Source: Candidatus Hydrogenedentota bacterium
GTDB lineage: Bacteria; Hydrogenedentota; Hydrogenedentia; Hydrogenedentales; SLHB01
Reading direction: 5' to 3'
Length of the DNA: 64,000 bases
Assembly (NCBI GenBank): GCA_029552745.1
Contig: JAKPDK010000120.1
Span: 1 to 64,000, forward strand
The position numbers and the translations under genes are program-made. The notes below the pieces were generated by a model. The model was not told the origin of the DNA. It did not search any database and saw only the letters and a list, made by a program, of their open reading frames with translations. How positions within the stretch are numbered: the stretch's first letter is position 1; every line of letters starts with the position of its first letter. Below are positions 366 through 25,107 of this stretch, in pieces.

Positions 366-2003
366 TTACGATTCGGGTTCTTCTCCAAACACAATTGCTT
401 GGAAAACAGAGAATTTCGCTCCTTCCTTCCAGGCGTCAGGGGGCAATCCCGCTTTTCGCGACAAATGCTCCAGCGTGGTAGGAAGATCCCAGCCTTGCTC
501 CGGGGCAACCTGCGGCAAAAACAACGCCCGGCGGCCTTGCTTCTCCAAAACAATCCCGTCGCGTCCCAGTTGGATGTCTTCGTAAGAAGCAACGGGGCGG
601 GGACCTTCCGCGTAGGCTGAAATCTCGAAAGAAATGTCTTGGAGCTCATCCGCTCGTACGGGCGGGAAACGTGGGTCTTCAAAAGCAGCATTGAGGGTTT
701 GCGCCATGACCGCCTCGTAAACAGGCCGTTGGGGGAATATCTCCCCAATGCAGCCTCGCAATTCCCCGTTCTTCTTAAGCGTTACAAAGGCTCCCATGAT
801 CTGCTTCATTCCGGGAGTAATCTCTACACCCAGGTCTTCGGGTTTTGGCGTCTTTCGGTGTTCTAATGCGTAGTTTAGCGTTTTGCGCGCAAGTTCCAAC
901 AAACGGCGCTTGTCCTCCTCCGTCAGACTTCCCGATGAGGAAAGCCCCTGTGGTTGTGAGTCTTGTTGCGGCCATGATCCGGCGCACGCAATACTCAAAT
1001 AACTGACGGAATTGGTAAAGTCTTTCATAAGCGCCCCGGAGGTATCGTATTGCACCAAACTTACAGCAGCCTCTTGGGGCAGGAGATTCAACAACACGGC
1101 AATGGGGGAAGCACCACAAATGGTGGCGCCTGTCTCATGGATATATCCGAGAAATCCTTCCGCGTCCTTTTTCTCGATGAATGCAAACGCTCCCATATCG
1201 AGTTTCTTCAGGTTTTCCGCTTCATTTTCCCTGAAGGGCAAGTAACCGTAATTCGGGCCATAGTGCGTAAAATCGCTGCTCACCACGACCAACGTGTCCG
1301 TGTCTACCAGCTTCCGTAACGTGTCGCCCATCGACTTGGCCGTTGCAGCATCCAACTGTCCCACCACCACAGGAACCAAGCGGAAGTCGTGAAAGGTTTC
1401 TTGTAACAACGGCACTTCAATTTGCACGCTGTGCTCGTATTCAAACGCACCAGGTACGGTGCGGAAATGAGGGTCTTCTTTTAATTTCTGGATAAAATCG
1501 GCATCCAAGGCAATTTGCCCGAGTGGCGTCTCAAAATGAGTATAGTCCGGCACGCTGGCAATGTTCTCCATCGGCAATCTGTGGGACGGTCCCATCACAA
1601 GGATACGGTTATACGTTTTGCCGGATGCCATTTTCACGCCCGCAGCAGCCGTGCGTCCGCTGTACATATATCCTGCATGAGGCAGGACAAGGGCAATAAT
1701 ATCTTTCTGCGGCATACTCGCGGCGCTCTCAAAGTAATTTCGAATCTCTGCTCTCAGTTCTTCCGGGTCTGCCGCAAACCAGCGACCCGCCAAGGGGGAA
1801 GAAAACGTTTTTTGTTTCATGGCTGCTTGCTCCGAAGTTTTTTCCTGAGTCTTTTCTATGGCACCAGCGTTTTCCTTGTAGGGGTCTTCTCCGCTGGATA
1901 GAACGACTCGGCTGTTTTTTGCCAAAAGCCACCACATGATTCCGCCAAGAACGATGGCTAGTGCCAAAATGCCTACCCATGTCGAACGCGGTACCGACAA
2001 CAT
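366..2003 (-). CDS. Membrane-anchored MEMO-AMMECR1 fusion (AmmeMemoRadiSam B+A)
   Basis: A 545-residue protein joins two modules usually seen as separate parts of the AmmeMemoRadiSam system. Residues 9-27 form one membrane helix with a short cytoplasmic start, followed by a charged linker. Residues about 68-345 are a MEMO domain (related to LigB-type dioxygenases) with the expected His109 (LPHAGY), His141 (GPSHR) and Cys296 (TICGASP). Residues about 365-540 are an AMMECR1 domain with the hallmark LRGCIG motif. The ATG has GAGGG ten bases upstream. The third usual partner, a radical SAM protein, is not adjacent. The nearest radical SAM gene (33041) belongs to another subgroup. The topology would place both domains outside the cytoplasm if the helix is a signal anchor; that is inference. 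The biochemical role of the family is unsettled. Confidence 0.88.
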   Translation of the reverse strand: MLSVPRSTWVGILALAIVLGGIMWWLLAKNSRVVLSSGEDPYKENAGAIEKTQEKTSEQAAMKQKTFSSPLAGRWFAADPEELRAEIRNYFESAASMPQKDIIALVLPHAGYMYSGRTAAAGVKMASGKTYNRILVMGPSHRLPMENIASVPDYTHFETPLGQIALDADFIQKLKEDPHFRTVPGAFEYEHSVQIEVPLLQETFHDFRLVPVVVGQLDAATAKSMGDTLRKLVDTDTLVVVSSDFTHYGPNYGYLPFRENEAENLKKLDMGAFAFIEKKDAEGFLGYIHETGATICGASPIAVLLNLLPQEAAVSLVQYDTSGALMKDFTNSVSYLSIACAGSWPQQDSQPQGLSSSGSLTEEDKRRLLELARKTLNYALEHRKTPKPEDLGVEITPGMKQIMGAFVTLKKNGELRGCIGEIFPQRPVYEAVMAQTLNAAFEDPRFPPVRADELQDISFEISAYAEGPRPVASYEDIQLGRDGIVLEKQGRRALFLPQVAPEQGWDLPTTLEHLSRKAGLPPDAWKEGAKFSVFQAIVFGEEPES

Positions 2004-17085: not shown

Positions 17086-17212
17086 ATAAGAGTTATTAAG
17101 AGAAAGGCATTGACGCATGACATTTCCGAGGTACGCTTGAACTAGTTACGAACCGCTTTGACCACTTAAGATTACTTGTTTTTCCGTCCTATTGCGCTTT
17201 GTCCCGCCCCCT

Positions 17213-17355
17213 GTCATTGCGAGGAGCCCCGAAGGGGCGACGTGGCAATCCCCTTAGGTATCCGGAGATTACCCCGACCCATGCCCCATGTCATCTTGCG
17301 CTACGCGGTCGAGGGGATTGCTTCGTCGCGTCGGGGACTCGCTCCTCGCAATGAC
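17213..17355 (+). repeat. Family A palindromic repeat, copy 1 of a close pair
   Basis: A 143-base unit. It begins GTCATTGCGAGGAGCCCCG and ends in the imperfect inverse CTCGCTCCTCGCAATGAC. The inner parts are GTGGCAATCCCCTTAGG and GAGGGGATTGCTTCGTCG. The next unit, 218 bases on, differs at only a handful of positions. Confidence 0.9.
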
Positions 17356-17386
17356 AAAAGTCCTGGGCAAACACGGTGTGGGGGCG

Positions 17387-17412
17387 AGGCATGCCTCGCC
17401 CTTTTTTCCCTT
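17387..17412 (+). repeat. Family B palindrome between two family A units
   Basis: GGGCGAGGCATGCCTCGCCC (17387-17406 region) is a perfect 20-base palindrome followed by a run of T residues, so it could also stop transcription on the plus strand. Confidence 0.75.
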
Positions 17413-17430
17413 TTCCTCCGGCCCCCCGTT

Positions 17431-17573
17431 GTCATTGCGAGGAGCCCCGAAGGGGCAACGTGGCAATCCCCTTAGGTATCCGGAGATTACCCCGACCCAT
17501 GCCCTATGTCCTCTTGCGCTACGCGGTTGAGGGGATTGCTTCGTCGCTTCGGGGACTCGCTCCTCGCAATGAC
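17431..17573 (+). repeat. Family A palindromic repeat, copy 2 of a close pair
   Basis: A 143-base unit in the same orientation as 17213-17355 and nearly identical. Exactly 37 bases after its end comes GTGCCAAAGG and GAACTTATGCAG (17611-17637), related to the transposase tail. The same spacing is found after the half unit at 38774-38816. Confidence 0.9.
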
Positions 17574-17698
17574 AACCAGGCGTACAAGCCCAGTCTACGT
17601 CCTCGATGCAGTGCCAAAGGTTTGGGAACTTATGCAGAATCCCGATCTGAGAAACAGGACGATGTACCATGTTAAGGTACAAGAGCCCAAATGTCGCG

Positions 17699-20600
17699 CT
17701 AGTTTGAATGGCGAGAAGGCCGATCGCTGTCCCTGCGGTAATAGAGGGCCTCGCGGTCGGAAAGCAACCCGCGACGAATCATTCGATGGAGCCGCTCCAT
17801 GTCAACATTTCGCGGTTTTCCCGCCACAGCCGAACGGGGTTGGGACACGATAGGAGCGGACTTTTCCTTCCATAACGAGGTTTCCGCCAGAGAGTAGAAA
17901 CCCATGGAAAGCGCCAGTGTCGCACAGGTTGCTATAAGAACCCCATATAGCCATGGCGACTTTTCGGGGGGCTGGACTGTGACATCAGGGGCGGAAGGCA
18001 TACGACATCGATCACAGCAAATGCAATCCAATTCCGCGGTAGAGCGTACACCGAGATCGCAACGTATCGGAGCCGTGGTTGGCAAAAAGCGTCTCATCAA
18101 ACGAACACCGCCTAATAACGCCAGAAATGCCCCCGAAGGACAAAGATTGCGACACCAAAACCTCGGGAAAAACAGTGCAAATACGAGCGCTGTGGCTCCC
18201 AATATGATTGTGAAACGGCTGGGATGAGCGGTGAACCATGTAGTCAAGGGGTCGGAGTTAAACACGGATGGGTTGCGCGTCAGCGCGAACAAAAGAACCA
18301 AAAAGAATAGCAGCCCATACTTGACGTGCCGTGCGTAACGCCACGTCATTTTGTTCAAAGATACCGAAAACTTTTTGGGAATTAGATCGCCTAGCAGTTC
18401 CTGGAACGCACCGAAGGGACAGAGGTAACCGCAATACAGGTTCCCGAAAACGATAACAAGAACCGGCACGCCTACGGTAAGAAGAAAAGCAGGCCGAAAC
18501 GATGGGAAAAGCGGCTTGAGACCGACGAACGTGGCTACGTGTTGTGCTGCGTATTGCATGTTGAAGCGATATCCCAACACCACGACAATGCCTAGCAATA
18601 AAAGCCGTCGCACTGTACGGTTAGGATATGTTCTCATTACGGCAAGCGCCGCGAGGAATGCCAGAAACAGCGCCGATGCCCAATCCCACTGGGAGATGTT
18701 CCCTTCGTAAGAATCTTGTTTCAAAGGTGCTTCAAGCGCGATACGGGCAAATGTAGGCGCGGCTTTTCGCAAGGCATCCAGGACGGCAGCCGATGTGAGC
18801 GTGGCTCCACTGCAGCCATCCACATTAAGTTCCGAAGGGGCGCGTAGCAAATTTTTCTCATAAAGTTTTGGAAGCCACGTTCGCACCATTTCCAGGTATG
18901 CTGGCGTCTCGTCATTTTGGAGGAATTCCACGCCTTGTAACACACCGTCCTTTCCCATAACCACGGCGATGTTTACGGGTCCGGCATAGCCGGCCAACGC
19001 ATTTGGCGCCAAATCACGGGCTGCAAAGACGAATGTTTGCTTTTCGGGCGCTTCGAGATACACGAACGACCTACCGTCCGACAACATGGCTGACCGTTGC
19101 TGCAGTTGGGCTTCGGGCAGAAACTTCCGGGCTATTTCTTGGAGCTGTTGTATCTCATCCGTACGGTTGTAATACGAAAACAAATCCGAGGCGATGAGTA
19201 ATAGGACTGCGAAACCTGTGGCAACATAGCCAATGCGCCGTACCCAAAGGTCATAGCGGTCTGTGGGAACAACCGGCAGGCCACGACCCGATGCGAGGAA
19301 AACGAGAGCCACCCATTCGACCAGGAATAAGCTCACCGCGAGGAGGGTCTGCGCCATTCCAAGAAAAGGTAGTAATATCAACCCCGTGAAGGCAGCCCCG
19401 AACGCGCCACCCATGTGATCCAAAAACTCCAGCCATCTGCTGCTAGCTTCTACCTTGTGTCCAAGCCGATCAAAAAGATAGGCGCTCGCTGGGAAAAAGG
19501 TTCCATTCACGACACCGGCGCCCAGTACGATGATGCGCCAGAACGTTTTCGAGAGATTCCGCGGCAACACCGGCGCCGAGAGTGCGAACGCAATGTATAC
19601 GAGTAGGACCCCAAACAGGAAAAACAAAATCCTGTTGGGGTGTCGAGAAACCACCGATTTTGTTAGGCTGCCTCCTAAAAAAATACCCAGCATGAATACA
19701 GCGGTAAGCAGCCCCACATCCAAGTAAAGTGAACCAAATTGATACTGATAGGCGAAAAGCAGGGTGAGGTTGAAAGACATGCTGGCAACGCCTGTTCCGA
19801 ATACAAGAATTGCGGCATCAAACATATTGGGCTTTGCGGCGTCCGCGCGGTAATGTCGCCAGATATAGGTCAGACGGAAACTTCCATACAGTAGCAAGAG
19901 AGCAAAGCAAAGAACGGGCACCGTGGCAAAAACCGCCGGAAACACCTCCGCCAAAGCCAAATCCGAGTACAAATGCAGGGTAGCGGAAAGGCTGTACACA
20001 AGCGATTTGGGAGCACCGTCTGTATTGAGCAATATCGTTTCGTTGCCTTGCGTCATCAAAGTCTCGTAGGCTTCGCGTTGAAAGGCAATGCGGTCGACAG
20101 GATACAAAGCAGAGAGACCCGTTGTGGGATAGATTTCTGACGCATCAGGGATGGAGGCAAAAAGCGAGCACAATTCGTCGGGGTTCTCTGACAATGGGGC
20201 GTCTGACGCCAAAAACCAACTCTCTTCGCCCGGTTTCAGTGCGATGTGCGCAAAGGAAGTGCGTAACGTTTGCAATATGGAAGCGCCCAAGTACGCCAGT
20301 TCGCTGCTCATGTAATTCACAGGACCGCGGAAACGTACGGATATGACTCCTCCTTCCGAAAGATGGCGTTTCAGGGCAGCGAAAAATTCACGTGTGACAT
20401 AACGATTGGTAACTAATGAAGAAAGATCTCCCACGGATAGAAGAATAAGGTCAAATTTCGGTTGGTCAGCATGTGAATGACTGAAATAGACGCGGGGCTC
20501 TTCCGAAGCAATCCCGAATCGCTCCTTGTCTGTCGGGAACATGTCAGGCGCTATCTGCAACAATCGTTTTGGATACGCGGCATCGGGACAAAACCAGACC

Positions 20601-21607
20601 ACCGTTTCAGTCGTCGGCGCCTCTAAGAACCGACTGCAAATCGCTAAAGCGGATTGGCCTACAACCGCTATACGGCGGCTCTTGGGACGTTGCGCCAGAT
20701 GCATAGCAACGACTTGGGAAGCATGTTCTTTTTCAGGCAAGGTCTCGCAGACGCCGCCCCAAGACAACACGACAAGTTGATCCCGGTTCCACCCATAAAG
20801 ATAGAGGGTTTGAGGGGTTGTAAAATGCCCACCAAATTGACCTGTGGGAATCATACGCCGCCACAGAGATCCTTGGTTATAAGAACTCCATGCGGTGCCC
20901 GTTCCGGCGGCGGTTGCCCCTATCAAACCCAACGCCGTCAAACCAAGGATCATGTCTTGCATGTGACGTGAACGGCGCTCGTCGGTCATATGAGTAAGCC
21001 CTACCAACACGGCAAAAAGGCACGCACCGATCAGGATCAAAGTTTCCGATGTGTTACCGTAGGCAAGAAACAAAGTCGCTGAAACGCCGCCGATAAATGC
21101 GCCCAACGTTTCCAGGACATAGACGTATGCCACGGGTAGTGGGCGGTCTCTCTCGCTCGCCCATCGGCACGTTTTGACGAACAAATAGCCCGTCGTGAAC
21201 GAAAAGGGCGCTGTGAGCGCAAGCGTCGTTACAATCATTCGCCCTAGAGGGAAAAGTTCGAATGTTTCGACACGTGCAAGAGGCCGTGCACAGTGCATGA
21301 GCTGAAATTGGAGAGCAAGAATCGGAATGTAGAACAGACAGACAACCGGGAGCGACGGACCGACTTTATTCTCGCCTTTCCAGGAAATGCGGTTAGGCGT
21401 TGTGGCGCCGATACCCACCCAGAATAACCAGCCCGCAAAGAAACAAGCGGTGGAGAATTCGTTTCCTTCAACAACGGTCAAAAACTCGCGGAATATAACC
21501 GTCTGAGCAATCGTGGAGAACAAACCAAGGGCTATCGGCACGCCTGACAAGGCTATTTGTCGATAGAATGTCTTTGGTTGAAGGGCTGCTGCCTCTTGTC
21601 GTTCCAT
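17699..21607 (-). CDS. Giant membrane fusion: spermidine-synthase-like, FMN-binding and NosR/NapH-like iron-sulfur domains
   Basis: 1302 residues with about 20 or more membrane helices. Residues 15-235: seven or so helices of the membrane spermidine-synthase-like type. Residues 260-510: soluble Rossmann domain like aminopropyltransferases (FDLILLSVGDLSSLVTNRYV, then LSEGGVISVRF), but the usual GGGDG loop reads VVGQSALA, so catalysis is doubtful. Residues 550-810: second helix block. Residues 865-960: FMN-binding domain with the covalent-FMN motif DGCSGATLTS (Ser933-Gly-Ala-Thr936). Residues 975-1240: NosR/NapH-type domain with CGYLCPFGA (Cys1059, 1063) and CRNLCPSGA (Cys1152, 1156), and a third cluster CICCDRC (1195-1201). 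Known relatives of the last two modules move electrons across or along the membrane (RnfG/NqrC, NosR, NapH). The gene stands alone, so its partner is unknown. The combination is unusual. Confidence 0.82.
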   Translation of the reverse strand: MERQEAAALQPKTFYRQIALSGVPIALGLFSTIAQTVIFREFLTVVEGNEFSTACFFAGWLFWVGIGATTPNRISWKGENKVGPSLPVVCLFYIPILALQFQLMHCARPLARVETFELFPLGRMIVTTLALTAPFSFTTGYLFVKTCRWASERDRPLPVAYVYVLETLGAFIGGVSATLFLAYGNTSETLILIGACLFAVLVGLTHMTDERRSRHMQDMILGLTALGLIGATAAGTGTAWSSYNQGSLWRRMIPTGQFGGHFTTPQTLYLYGWNRDQLVVLSWGGVCETLPEKEHASQVVAMHLAQRPKSRRIAVVGQSALAICSRFLEAPTTETVVWFCPDAAYPKRLLQIAPDMFPTDKERFGIASEEPRVYFSHSHADQPKFDLILLSVGDLSSLVTNRYVTREFFAALKRHLSEGGVISVRFRGPVNYMSSELAYLGASILQTLRTSFAHIALKPGEESWFLASDAPLSENPDELCSLFASIPDASEIYPTTGLSALYPVDRIAFQREAYETLMTQGNETILLNTDGAPKSLVYSLSATLHLYSDLALAEVFPAVFATVPVLCFALLLLYGSFRLTYIWRHYRADAAKPNMFDAAILVFGTGVASMSFNLTLLFAYQYQFGSLYLDVGLLTAVFMLGIFLGGSLTKSVVSRHPNRILFFLFGVLLVYIAFALSAPVLPRNLSKTFWRIIVLGAGVVNGTFFPASAYLFDRLGHKVEASSRWLEFLDHMGGAFGAAFTGLILLPFLGMAQTLLAVSLFLVEWVALVFLASGRGLPVVPTDRYDLWVRRIGYVATGFAVLLLIASDLFSYYNRTDEIQQLQEIARKFLPEAQLQQRSAMLSDGRSFVYLEAPEKQTFVFAARDLAPNALAGYAGPVNIAVVMGKDGVLQGVEFLQNDETPAYLEMVRTWLPKLYEKNLLRAPSELNVDGCSGATLTSAAVLDALRKAAPTFARIALEAPLKQDSYEGNISQWDWASALFLAFLAALAVMRTYPNRTVRRLLLLGIVVVLGYRFNMQYAAQHVATFVGLKPLFPSFRPAFLLTVGVPVLVIVFGNLYCGYLCPFGAFQELLGDLIPKKFSVSLNKMTWRYARHVKYGLLFFLVLLFALTRNPSVFNSDPLTTWFTAHPSRFTIILGATALVFALFFPRFWCRNLCPSGAFLALLGGVRLMRRFLPTTAPIRCDLGVRSTAELDCICCDRCRMPSAPDVTVQPPEKSPWLYGVLIATCATLALSMGFYSLAETSLWKEKSAPIVSQPRSAVAGKPRNVDMERLHRMIRRGLLSDREALYYRRDSDRPSRHSN

Positions 21608-22302: not shown

Positions 22303-23279
22303 AGGGATTTCCCTCCTATGGAGTGGAGTTACTTTGGGTCTGCAACACATGTACTCGTTACGTGCATGTGTATGTCCTATGGCAAGCCCTCTCGTCCTCG
22401 AATGGGAAAAGGAGTGACGAAAGAGGTTCCATTGCCCTTATACCTAAAATCTTCCAAGGCAGTCAACCTATTGTTCGAACGGAGCAAATATACAAGAGGA
22501 CGAAGCGATCTCCTCGGGTATCTGTAGGGGCGCAACGTGTTGCGCCCTTTCACCCGTGGTCCTTCAGGTAAGCGCGAGACATTGATCGGGAGGGCGACCA
22601 CAGCGGGTCGCCCCTACAATGCGGTACGCGAGGGCTTTTTTTCTCACATGCCCTTGTTTTCTCTGTAGGGGCGAGGCATGCCTCGCCCTGTTCGGTTATT
22701 CTTGCGAGGAGCCGCGTCCGCTACGCGAGGAATCAGTCCCCGGTGTTTTTTGTAGGGGCGAGCCCCCGTGCTCGTCCTCTTCGTCCCCCTGGTTGTCATT
22801 GCGAGGAGTAAGACCCCGACGTGACGAAGCAATCCCCTCAACCTCGCAGCGCAAGAGAACCTAAGGCAAGGTCATTTTTGAATACCTAAGGGGATTGCCA
22901 CGTCGCCCCTTCGGGGCTCCTCGCAATGACAACCTGGATACGTAGCGTAAGGGGACATCGTGCGTGACGGCATACCTCGCAATGACAGTGCGGGGCGTAG
23001 TGCAAGAGGATGCTGGGCGAGGTCCGGGTCCACCGCAAGTACCTGGGAAAGTTGTTGCATTGGAGGCAAGGATGACTGCCCCGCGTTGTGCCCGTCAAGG
23101 CTGACGTATCGTCTGTGGATGTGCGTGTCACGTGGGGTGCTGGGCTGTCTATCTGACCTGAACGGGCGCGAGACCTTATTGCATCTACTTGGGATCTCGT
23201 CGGCACATGCTTGGTCTTTTATCGTTCCTTGGGGGGTAAATAGCGGCAAGGCTCGTCTAATTACGCAACGGATTACGAC
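22303..23279. repeat. Repeat-filled gap of about 1 kb
   Basis: No gene is supported here. Family B hairpins lie at about 22523-22548 (core GCAACGTGTTGC), 22592-22617 (GACCACAGCGGGTC), 22664-22689 (GAGGCATGCCTC) and 22752-22777 (GAGCCCCCGTGCTC). A full family A unit, inverted relative to the 17 kb pair, lies at 22795-22930, and a half copy (GTGCGTGACGGC to CGCAATGAC) at 22958-22986. From 22990 to 23279 I see only unassigned sequence; short open frames there lack family features. Confidence 0.75.
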
Positions 23280-24212
23280 CTATTTCCGAAGTCTTGCAAA
23301 GTATTCGGTGATTGTTTGAACATCTTTCCGAATCTGTTCAACCAAATCCTCACGGGAGGGAAACTTTCTTTCGGGGCGCAGTCTGTGATGAAAAATCAGC
23401 TCCATCTCTTTTCCTGAGATATCCCCGCTGAAGTTTATCAGGTGTGCCTCCACAACGACGTTGTCTTGACGAATCGTAGGGGCAATGCCGATGTTGATAG
23501 CGGCAGGGTAGGACATCCCATCCAGTAGTGCTTCCGCCGCATAGACGCCGTGTGCGGGAATGATGCTCCGTGGGGAGATAACGTTTGCCGTGGGAAATCC
23601 CAGAGTTTTGCCGATGCCGCGGCCTTGCTCGATGCGCCCATGCAGGGCAAATTTTCTGCCAAGAAATAGTTCCGCTTGTTCCAGGTCGCCCTCGAGAATG
23701 CGCTCTCGGATCGCTGTGCTGCTCACGCGTTCGCCTTGTATGAGGAGAGGTGCCATCTGAGAAACTTTGAAACCGAAGCGAGGAGCCATGTTCTCCAGCA
23801 GGTCGAAGTCGCCCCGCGCGGCACGTCCAAACCGGAAATCATGCCCCACAACAAGCTCCCGCACGCCACATTTACCCAAAAGGACCTTTTCGACAAAATC
23901 TTTCGGCTCGAGACTTGCCGTTTCGGCATTAAAGGGAAAGAAAAAAACTGCGTCCAAGCCAAGGTGCTCCAGCAAGGCGATTTTCTGTTTTTCTGTAGTC
24001 AATAAGTTGGGGGTGTGGTTGGGCATAAAGAATTCTCGAGGGTGAGGACGAAATGTGAGGACGGCGGCTGTCCCATTGATTCGGCGCGCATCTTGCACTA
24101 CTTGACGAAGAATCGCTTGGTGTCCCAGGTGTACCCCGTCAAAACTCCCGATGGTCATGACGACATGCGGCAACCGCGGCGTCTCAGTGAATATGTTATT
24201 AACCACGAGCAT
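23280..24212 (-). CDS. ribF: Bifunctional riboflavin kinase/FAD synthetase
   Basis: 310 residues from the ATG at 24212, the usual length; a longer open frame would run into truB. The N-terminal FAD synthetase domain has VVMTIGSFDGVHLGHQAIL (nucleotidyltransferase signature), FRPHPREFF and VGHDFRFGRAARGD, with STAIRERI closing the domain. The C-terminal kinase domain shows GRIEQGRGIGKTLGFPTANV and NIGIAPTI. It makes FMN and FAD from riboflavin in the cytoplasm. It is the last gene of the rimP-nusA-infB operon, starting five bases after the truB stop, a common arrangement (truB-ribF). Confidence 0.95.
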   Translation of the reverse strand: MLVVNNIFTETPRLPHVVMTIGSFDGVHLGHQAILRQVVQDARRINGTAAVLTFRPHPREFFMPNHTPNLLTTEKQKIALLEHLGLDAVFFFPFNAETASLEPKDFVEKVLLGKCGVRELVVGHDFRFGRAARGDFDLLENMAPRFGFKVSQMAPLLIQGERVSSTAIRERILEGDLEQAELFLGRKFALHGRIEQGRGIGKTLGFPTANVISPRSIIPAHGVYAAEALLDGMSYPAAINIGIAPTIRQDNVVVEAHLINFSGDISGKEMELIFHHRLRPERKFPSREDLVEQIRKDVQTITEYFARLRK

Positions 24213-24216
24213 GACG

Positions 24217-25107
24217 TCACGAAGATTGAACCGCGAGCACGCGTCTCGGTTGAATGCGCCGACCTGGTTGCACCTCACCTAACGCGATCAATTCCCCTCG
24301 CTCGTTCTTGATTTGTACCCAACCCTCGACCACAGGGCACTCAAACTTCAAATGACTTCGTTCAATGACGCCGCCCGAGAGTGTATTTAGCGCTGCCTTT
24401 GCGCACACAACCACCTCTGGTAAATCGAGCGCCTTTTCCATGGGAAGTAACCGCTCCCTTACGGCATCCGCGGAAGTCAACTCATCCAAAGGCGCGGCTT
24501 CGTGTACACCATGTTTTCCAACCCATGTTCGCCGAAGTGATACCAACGCTGCACCGCATCCCGCCAACTCTCCCACTTCGTGACACAAGGCGCGCGCATA
24601 CGTGCCGCTGCTGCACCGCAACACAAACTCCACATCGGGTGGCTGATAGTCTCGCACGAGAAATTCATGAACGGTAATGGCGCGAGGCTGACGTTCTACG
24701 GTCTCTCCTTTACGCGCCAGTTTATAAAGCCGCTGCCCTTTGACCTTGACAGCGCTGACCATGGGCGGCATCTGCTGAATGTTTCCAGTAAATTTGTTGA
24801 ACAGGTGCTGTATTTGTGCCAAATGTAATTCCGGCACAGGACGCACCGCAACCACCTCTCCTTCCATGTCATACGAAGTTGTGGTGATACCGAATCGCAT
24901 GTTGCCTTCGTAGACCTTGTCCAACGACGTCAGAAATTCCGACAGGCGCGTGGCGTTTCCCAAACAGAGAATCAGCAGACCGGTTGCGGACGGGTCCAGC
25001 GTACCCGTGTGGCCGACCCGTCGTATTCCAACCACACGCCGGATTCGGTCTACTACATCATGCGAGGTCAAACCTTGGGGTTTATCTACAAGCAAGACAC
25101 CGTTCAT
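24217..25107 (-). CDS. truB: tRNA pseudouridine(55) synthase
   Basis: 296 residues. It converts U55 in the T arm of tRNAs to pseudouridine. The N-terminus LLVDKPQGLTSHDVVDRIR and the catalytic motif VGHTGTLDPSATGLL with Asp38 are diagnostic; RYGTTT-like and YARALCHEVG segments follow in order. A C-terminal PUA-like part is short. The ATG overlaps the TGA of the DHH gene (ATGA), so translation is likely coupled. Confidence 0.96.
   Translation of the reverse strand: MNGVLLVDKPQGLTSHDVVDRIRRVVGIRRVGHTGTLDPSATGLLILCLGNATRLSEFLTSLDKVYEGNMRFGITTTSYDMEGEVVAVRPVPELHLAQIQHLFNKFTGNIQQMPPMVSAVKVKGQRLYKLARKGETVERQPRAITVHEFLVRDYQPPDVEFVLRCSSGTYARALCHEVGELAGCGAALVSLRRTWVGKHGVHEAAPLDELTSADAVRERLLPMEKALDLPEVVVCAKAALNTLSGGVIERSHLKFECPVVEGWVQIKNERGELIALGEVQPGRRIQPRRVLAVQSS

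Follow-up and report, generated by a model that had tools for sequence, protein, structure and literature searches.

AmmeMemoRadiSam is a set of three proteins, comprising a Memo protein (TIGR04336), an AMMECR1 protein (TIGR04335) and a radical S-adenosylmethionine (SAM) enzyme (TIGR04337, hereafter RSAM); the literature on AmmeMemoRadiSam, on Memo or AMMECR1 with radical SAM enzymes and on exported radical SAM enzymes yielded nothing on function. Also related to the locus described here are the membrane proteins NosR and NapH, the covalent flavin mononucleotide (FMN) subunits RnfG and NqrC, and the fused MFS/spermidine synthases (NF037959, PRK03612). This study concerns a gene on the minus strand, at positions 17699-21607, of a 64,000-nucleotide stretch (the window) from a Candidatus Hydrogenedentota genome, which encodes a single 1302-residue fused membrane protein. 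This protein is none of the three named AmmeMemoRadiSam members; we propose it as an additional component in a variant of the known system, and we consider it fairly probable that it forms the membrane subunit of that variant, which would work at the outer face of the cytoplasmic membrane.

In relatives, the gene order is RSAM, a tiny open reading frame (ORF) of twin-arginine translocation (Tat) type, a Memo-AMMECR1 gene and the fusion gene, and the operon partners are the same three proteins that define AmmeMemoRadiSam, scoring well above the family cut-offs. At least one of these partners adjoins the fusion gene in 22 of the 26 fused loci that have an adequate upstream flank. Across the 60 nearest genomes, a high-scoring RSAM was found in 17 of the 18 genomes with the fusion versus none of the 42 without it. 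An association between the fusion and AmmeMemoRadiSam genes is strongly supported by these sequence comparisons. Compared to the known system, the variant has export signals on Memo-AMMECR1 and on many RSAMs, with a redox membrane component and a tiny Tat protein added. The sequence-only reading of the window had considered the gene to be alone, with unknown redox partners, and had proposed a search for the same architecture and its conserved neighbors in other genomes. That search recovered the AmmeMemoRadiSam operon; the gene is indeed alone in the window genome, but the neighborhoods in relatives rule out a gene without any partners.

In the window genome, the Memo-AMMECR1 fusion is encoded within the same window (positions 369-2003, minus strand), 15.7 kb from the fusion gene; it has an N-terminal signal anchor and scores 216.7 bits against TIGR04336 (cut-off 26) and 160.4 bits against TIGR04335 (cut-off 99). 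The operon-type RSAM (L033/L042; 379 bits against TIGR04337, cut-off 220) is on contig C106, with the tiny ORF directly 3' of it. The same genome contains three further Memo-family genes (on C24, on C106 and at C36:66036-66899) and, on C25, another TIGR04337 radical SAM gene with a lower score. A dispersed repeat of ~150 bp, of which the genome has about 40 substantial copies, flanks the fusion gene in opposite orientation (17204-17575 and 22783-22964), and it is possible that these flanking repeats caused the gene to leave its operon.

The tiny ORF (55-75 codons) lies between RSAM and Memo-AMMECR1 and overlaps the 3' end of the RSAM gene in a different frame. It starts with an RRxF-type twin-arginine motif, usually ends in (Y/F)PG...W-x-G (L-A-G in two Planctomycetota) and matched no Pfam family above cut-off. 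When a profile built from 11 of these sequences was run over 15,036 frames, all 21 matches ended 0-400 nt past the stop codon of a same-strand RSAM gene. The RSAMs of fused operons have no signal of their own and begin right at the core, and in the RSAM tree the members with a separate Tat ORF group in a single clade with support of 100/95, and the Tat-fused RSAM of L162 is sister to it (96/82).

The main alternative to our proposal gives the tiny protein another role: RSAM would stay in the cytoplasm and modify the tiny Tat protein, which would be a substrate or carrier rather than an escort, and after Tat export of the modified peptide, Memo-AMMECR1 and the membrane protein with its FMN and iron-sulfur (Fe-S) centers would use or finish it outside. 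The constant position of the tiny ORF directly 3' of the RSAM gene, its conserved C-terminal residues (Y-P-G, W-x-G), the signal-less RSAMs of fused operons and the relationship of TIGR04337 to glycyl-radical activases are all compatible with this scheme. However, RSAM itself bears a Tat-like signal in both close and distant relatives, and in the scanned loci the genes for such Tat-signal RSAMs occur without a separate W-x-G peptide, which leaves the substrate scheme rather unlikely in our judgment.

Signals of this kind, and the parts of the fusion itself, move between genes in the relatives. In about 41 of the 392 Planctomycetota genomes sampled, RSAM starts with a Tat-like signal (e.g., SRREFLKAG), typically followed by EAxYYKKL and then by the CxLCPxxC core. 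Tat-signal RSAM was found in 38 of the 56 Planctomycetota genomes with an unfused MFS-SpdSyn protein of ~800 residues versus 3 of the 336 others (p=2e-35, uncorrected for relatedness), and the two are often adjacent. In L147-L149, the FMN/Fer4_5 protein, an anchored RSAM and MFS-SpdSyn are separate neighboring genes; Memo-AMMECR1 is adjacent too in L148 and L149, and in L149 all four parts are separate adjacent genes with Pfam-confirmed domains. In the RSAMs of L147-L149, a motif such as LSLHEALYW comes after an N-terminal membrane anchor. A separate Tat ORF occurs with MFS-SpdSyn alone or with MFS-SpdSyn-FMN in L181, L182, L185, L186 and L200, while the tail of the fusion (a transmembrane (TM) helix plus GLLSDREALYY) is a separate anchored protein of ~100 residues in L016, L018, L022-L025, L109 and L110. 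From this module shuffling and the RSAM tree, we infer that the signal, the docking segment and the RSAM core formerly made up a single chain or complex. The same observations bear on a general NosR/Rnf-type single-chain electron carrier with a ligand-sensing synthase-like domain, independent of AmmeMemoRadiSam. Such a carrier would suit the domain content and the scattered partner genes of the window genome, but it is improbable given the frequent adjacency to AmmeMemoRadiSam genes and the fact that both halves, where they are separate genes, adjoin the same RSAM.

Other FMN/Fer4_5 proteins occur outside the fusion. Those of L147 (1948-3978), L148 (4654-6951) and L149 (5603-7498) have an extra N-terminal membrane domain, which in L149 matches DsbD_2, a hint of thiol chemistry. 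In L031 (3227-4915) and L032 (6975-8663), a stand-alone protein combines two FMN_bind domains with Fer4_5 and is encoded beside a large gene; in L031 this neighbor resembles flavin adenine dinucleotide (FAD)-dependent oxidoreductases, a different electron-transfer pair. The stand-alone FMN/Fer4_5 proteins of L099 (6719-8128), L188 (5973-7385) and L189 (4188-5783) have a similar third cysteine cluster, and no RSAM was present in the fetched flanks of these genes.

The 1302 codons of the window gene are open without interruption from the ATG, and full-length homologues support its extent. About 37 genomes from at least three phyla encode the fusion as one ORF, at 26-40% identity to the window protein across the whole length, and the fusion is therefore not a misjoin. 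Full-length one-frame homologues were found in some 14 of the 60 nearest genomes, in at least 4 of the 392 sampled Planctomycetota and, within the phylum to which a Kiritimatiellae metagenome-assembled genome (MAG) belongs, in 19 of the 388 genomes sampled; named matches include that MAG and partial matches in Verrucomicrobia, Phycisphaerae and Auribacterota MAGs. Some relatives do keep the modules as separate adjacent genes (L147-L149, L186, L200), which is half of the situation that the sequence-only reading had named as its refutation (routinely separate homologues, with this one a misjoin), but the fused form is real and frequent. No evidence for an assembly or frame artefact fusing neighboring genes was found, and with one frame conserved over the full length in several phyla, assembly error is ruled out and the chance of any such artefact is vanishingly small. 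In one related locus (L018, 7985-11536), the fused gene of genome G038 is broken between 8401 and 8432.

Along the chain, with all features on the minus strand, membrane block 1 (residues 21-237; 20897-21547) has seven predicted TM helices, assigned from family-averaged hydropathy and the positive-inside rule. It is followed by a spermidine-synthase-like domain (residues ~245-545; 19973-20875), membrane block 2 (residues 559-810; 19178-19933), with eight TM helices predicted from the hydropathy profile, and an FMN_bind domain (residues ~815-960; 18728-19165) placed by Pfam, topology and Foldseek. Membrane block 3, which is Fer4_5/NosR-NapH-like, has five TM helices (residues 973-1150; 18158-18691), and the family-averaged profile gives a last TM helix (residues 1223-1241; 17885-17941) before the C-terminal tail (17702-17884), with the tail motif at 17738-17770. 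Pfam identified Fer4_5 (E=2.5e-16, two stretches) and FMN_bind (E=1.5e-11), and sub-threshold NCBIfam matches to MFS_SpdSyn, NosR, NapH and RnfG fall in the expected order. AlphaFold2 models of the two halves were built from 5 and 3 sequences, with a mean predicted local distance difference test score of 51.7 and 44.9, and were used for fold recognition only. For the low-confidence model of residues 1-815, Foldseek ranked SpeE/spermidine synthases first (best 7xih, E=7.1e-7, probability 1.00), and the FMN region of the model of residues 801-1302 matched RnfG (E=0.025). The three modules proposed from the sequence alone (spermidine-synthase-like, FMN-binding and NosR/NapH-like) are thus confirmed by Pfam, NCBIfam and Foldseek; the structure prediction that had been suggested recognized the synthase and RnfG folds, but the models were poor.

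The covalent-FMN motif, the two CxxxCP motifs and the third cysteine cluster that had been reported were likewise found. The motifs CGYLCP (residues 1059-1064; 18416-18433) and CRNLCP (residues 1152-1157; 18137-18154) and the cluster C1183-x11-C1195-x2-C1198-x2-C1201 (18005-18061) together hold eight cysteines (1059, 1063, 1152, 1156, 1183, 1195, 1198 and 1201) that are invariant in 15 homologues. In the flavinylation motif DGCSGAT (residues 930-936; 18800-18820), G934-A935 is invariant and D930 and T936 are nearly invariant, and T936 is a candidate FMN attachment site. The motif D-x-x-S/T-G-A-T and two ApbE genes are both present in the genome. A bifunctional riboflavin kinase/FAD synthetase gene lies two genes upstream (23280-24278), and a link to flavin use is probably coincidental. 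NosR and NapH resemble the window protein in their FMN_bind domain with a flavinylation motif, membrane helices and Fer4_5 with two CxxxCP motifs, but membership in either family is ruled out by scores far below the cut-offs (NosR 51.3 bits versus the curated 1000; NapH 36.2 bits versus 213) and by missing ferredoxin motifs. The window protein has no C-terminal CxxCxxCxxxCP motifs and, after residue 1157, only C-x11-C-x2-C-x2-C; its third cluster is different, and it is fused to an MFS/synthase-like half. RnfG and NqrC share the FMN_bind fold and the SGAT attachment motif, whereas here no Rnf/Nqr context was seen and FMN_bind is one domain of a much larger protein.

The synthase-like half is related to NF037959 and PRK03612, in which membrane helices likewise surround an aminopropyltransferase-like domain, and an unfused relative scores above or well towards the cut-off of these families. 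In contrast, the window protein falls below the cut-off, has an FMN/Fe-S half added and has lost both the active-site loop and the catalytic aspartate. The position of the glycine loop, already described as lost from the sequence alone, reads VVGQSALA (residues 315-322), and the catalytic segment reads LLSVGDL versus IIMDLTDP, with serine at the first catalytic aspartate. The GGG(D/E)G loop is absent from all 24 fused members aligned to SpeE, and 19 of them, including the window protein, have replaced the first catalytic aspartate; unfused relatives often keep the GGG loop and frequently have asparagine at the catalytic aspartate. Because the glycine loop and usually the catalytic aspartate are lost, aminopropyl transfer appears unlikely, while ligand binding is possible. 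An active spermidine synthase is ruled out on active-site residues. That the domain is some active aminopropyl- or SAM-dependent transferase is highly improbable: the fold resembles SpeE and the second aspartate of the DxxD segment is mostly retained, but the losses just described and the predicted location outside the cytoplasm argue against activity.

Topology was taken from family-averaged hydropathy and the positive-inside rule, which replaced single-sequence predictions. The family average gives 21 TM helices with the N-terminus inside and loop charges that alternate (mean K+R 3.1 inside versus 1.3 outside). The predicted order is 7 TM, synthase-like domain outside, 8 TM, FMN domain outside, 5 TM, 1 TM and tail outside, with all cysteine motifs on the inside. 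ApbE-flavinylated domains are extracytosolic (PMC8238504, PMC11334425), in agreement with the predicted placement of FMN. The operon Memo-AMMECR1 proteins have lipobox-like N-termini (e.g., LTISGC, IPFAC) or a signal anchor, and RRxFLK-type signals are found on dozens of RSAMs, with the Pfam TAT models sub-threshold. These signals suggest that the trio works outside the cytoplasm in these bacteria, and export of the system has moderate support. Tat hitchhiking of signal-less partners is established (PMC10924467).

Set beside the co-location, co-occurrence, module swapping, loss of the synthase site and flavinylation and eight-cysteine signatures that comparison reveals, the best reading of the protein's role is that it brings in electrons and provides a docking site, as a membrane subunit of an AmmeMemoRadiSam system outside the cytoplasm. 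Radical SAM enzymes require a low-potential electron to start turnover, and the electron for an extracytoplasmic RSAM must arrive through the membrane. A cytosolic donor or quinol would reduce Fe-S centers at the inner face (the two CxxxCP motifs and the third cluster), from which electrons would cross the membrane to the covalent FMN outside; the FMN would then pass them to the exported complex of RSAM and Memo-AMMECR1, where a cluster or a metal would be reduced. RSAM would fold with its clusters in the cytoplasm and be exported through Tat, either by its own signal or escorted by the tiny Tat protein. It would dock on the tail motif, which in relatives is part of the RSAM N-terminus. A small molecule is probably the ligand or cargo of the MFS/synthase-like half; to name SAM or a SAM product here is guesswork. 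Human MEMO1 is a metal-binding redox protein that binds iron and copper (PMC9477392, PMC11081632). We hold electron delivery by the 1302-residue protein with moderate confidence, and the single-chain membrane electron carrier proposed from the sequence alone fits its motifs and topology.

Several points weigh against this proposal. The partners are not adjacent in L193, L194, L196 and the window, and the co-occurrence across the 60 nearest genomes (Fisher 5e-14) is not corrected for phylogeny. The resemblance of the tail motif to the N-terminal region of stand-alone RSAMs is a short match, judged by motif and position, a chimera of tail and RSAM raised the TIGR04337 score by 3.9 bits only, and the membrane-anchored RSAMs of L147-L149 have no RR motif. 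Hydropathy and the positive-inside rule are the sole basis of the topology; single-sequence predictions made by dynamic programming were mutually inconsistent, mainly through false helices in the synthase domain, and the models of both halves were poor. To our knowledge, no radical SAM enzyme is known to be exported and no supply of SAM outside the cytoplasm is known, and neither turned up in the literature searched. The supply of SAM outside is speculative and the weakest step. The fuller proposal, in which an RSAM family is Tat-exported with its Fe-S clusters to work outside the cytoplasm and one dedicated membrane protein delivers both low-potential electrons (from Fe-S to covalent FMN) and, by way of its MFS/synthase-like half, SAM or a related nucleoside, is doubtful in our judgment.

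The AmmeMemoRadiSam trio is widespread, and two of its parts, Memo and AMMECR1, have human homologues (MEMO1 and AMMECR1). In the variant, the export signals and a dedicated membrane electron carrier offer concrete clues to where the system works, what its redox partner is and how its parts dock, and they make its role open to testing. If true, an extracytoplasmic radical SAM enzyme would break the assumption that these enzymes are confined to the cytoplasm.

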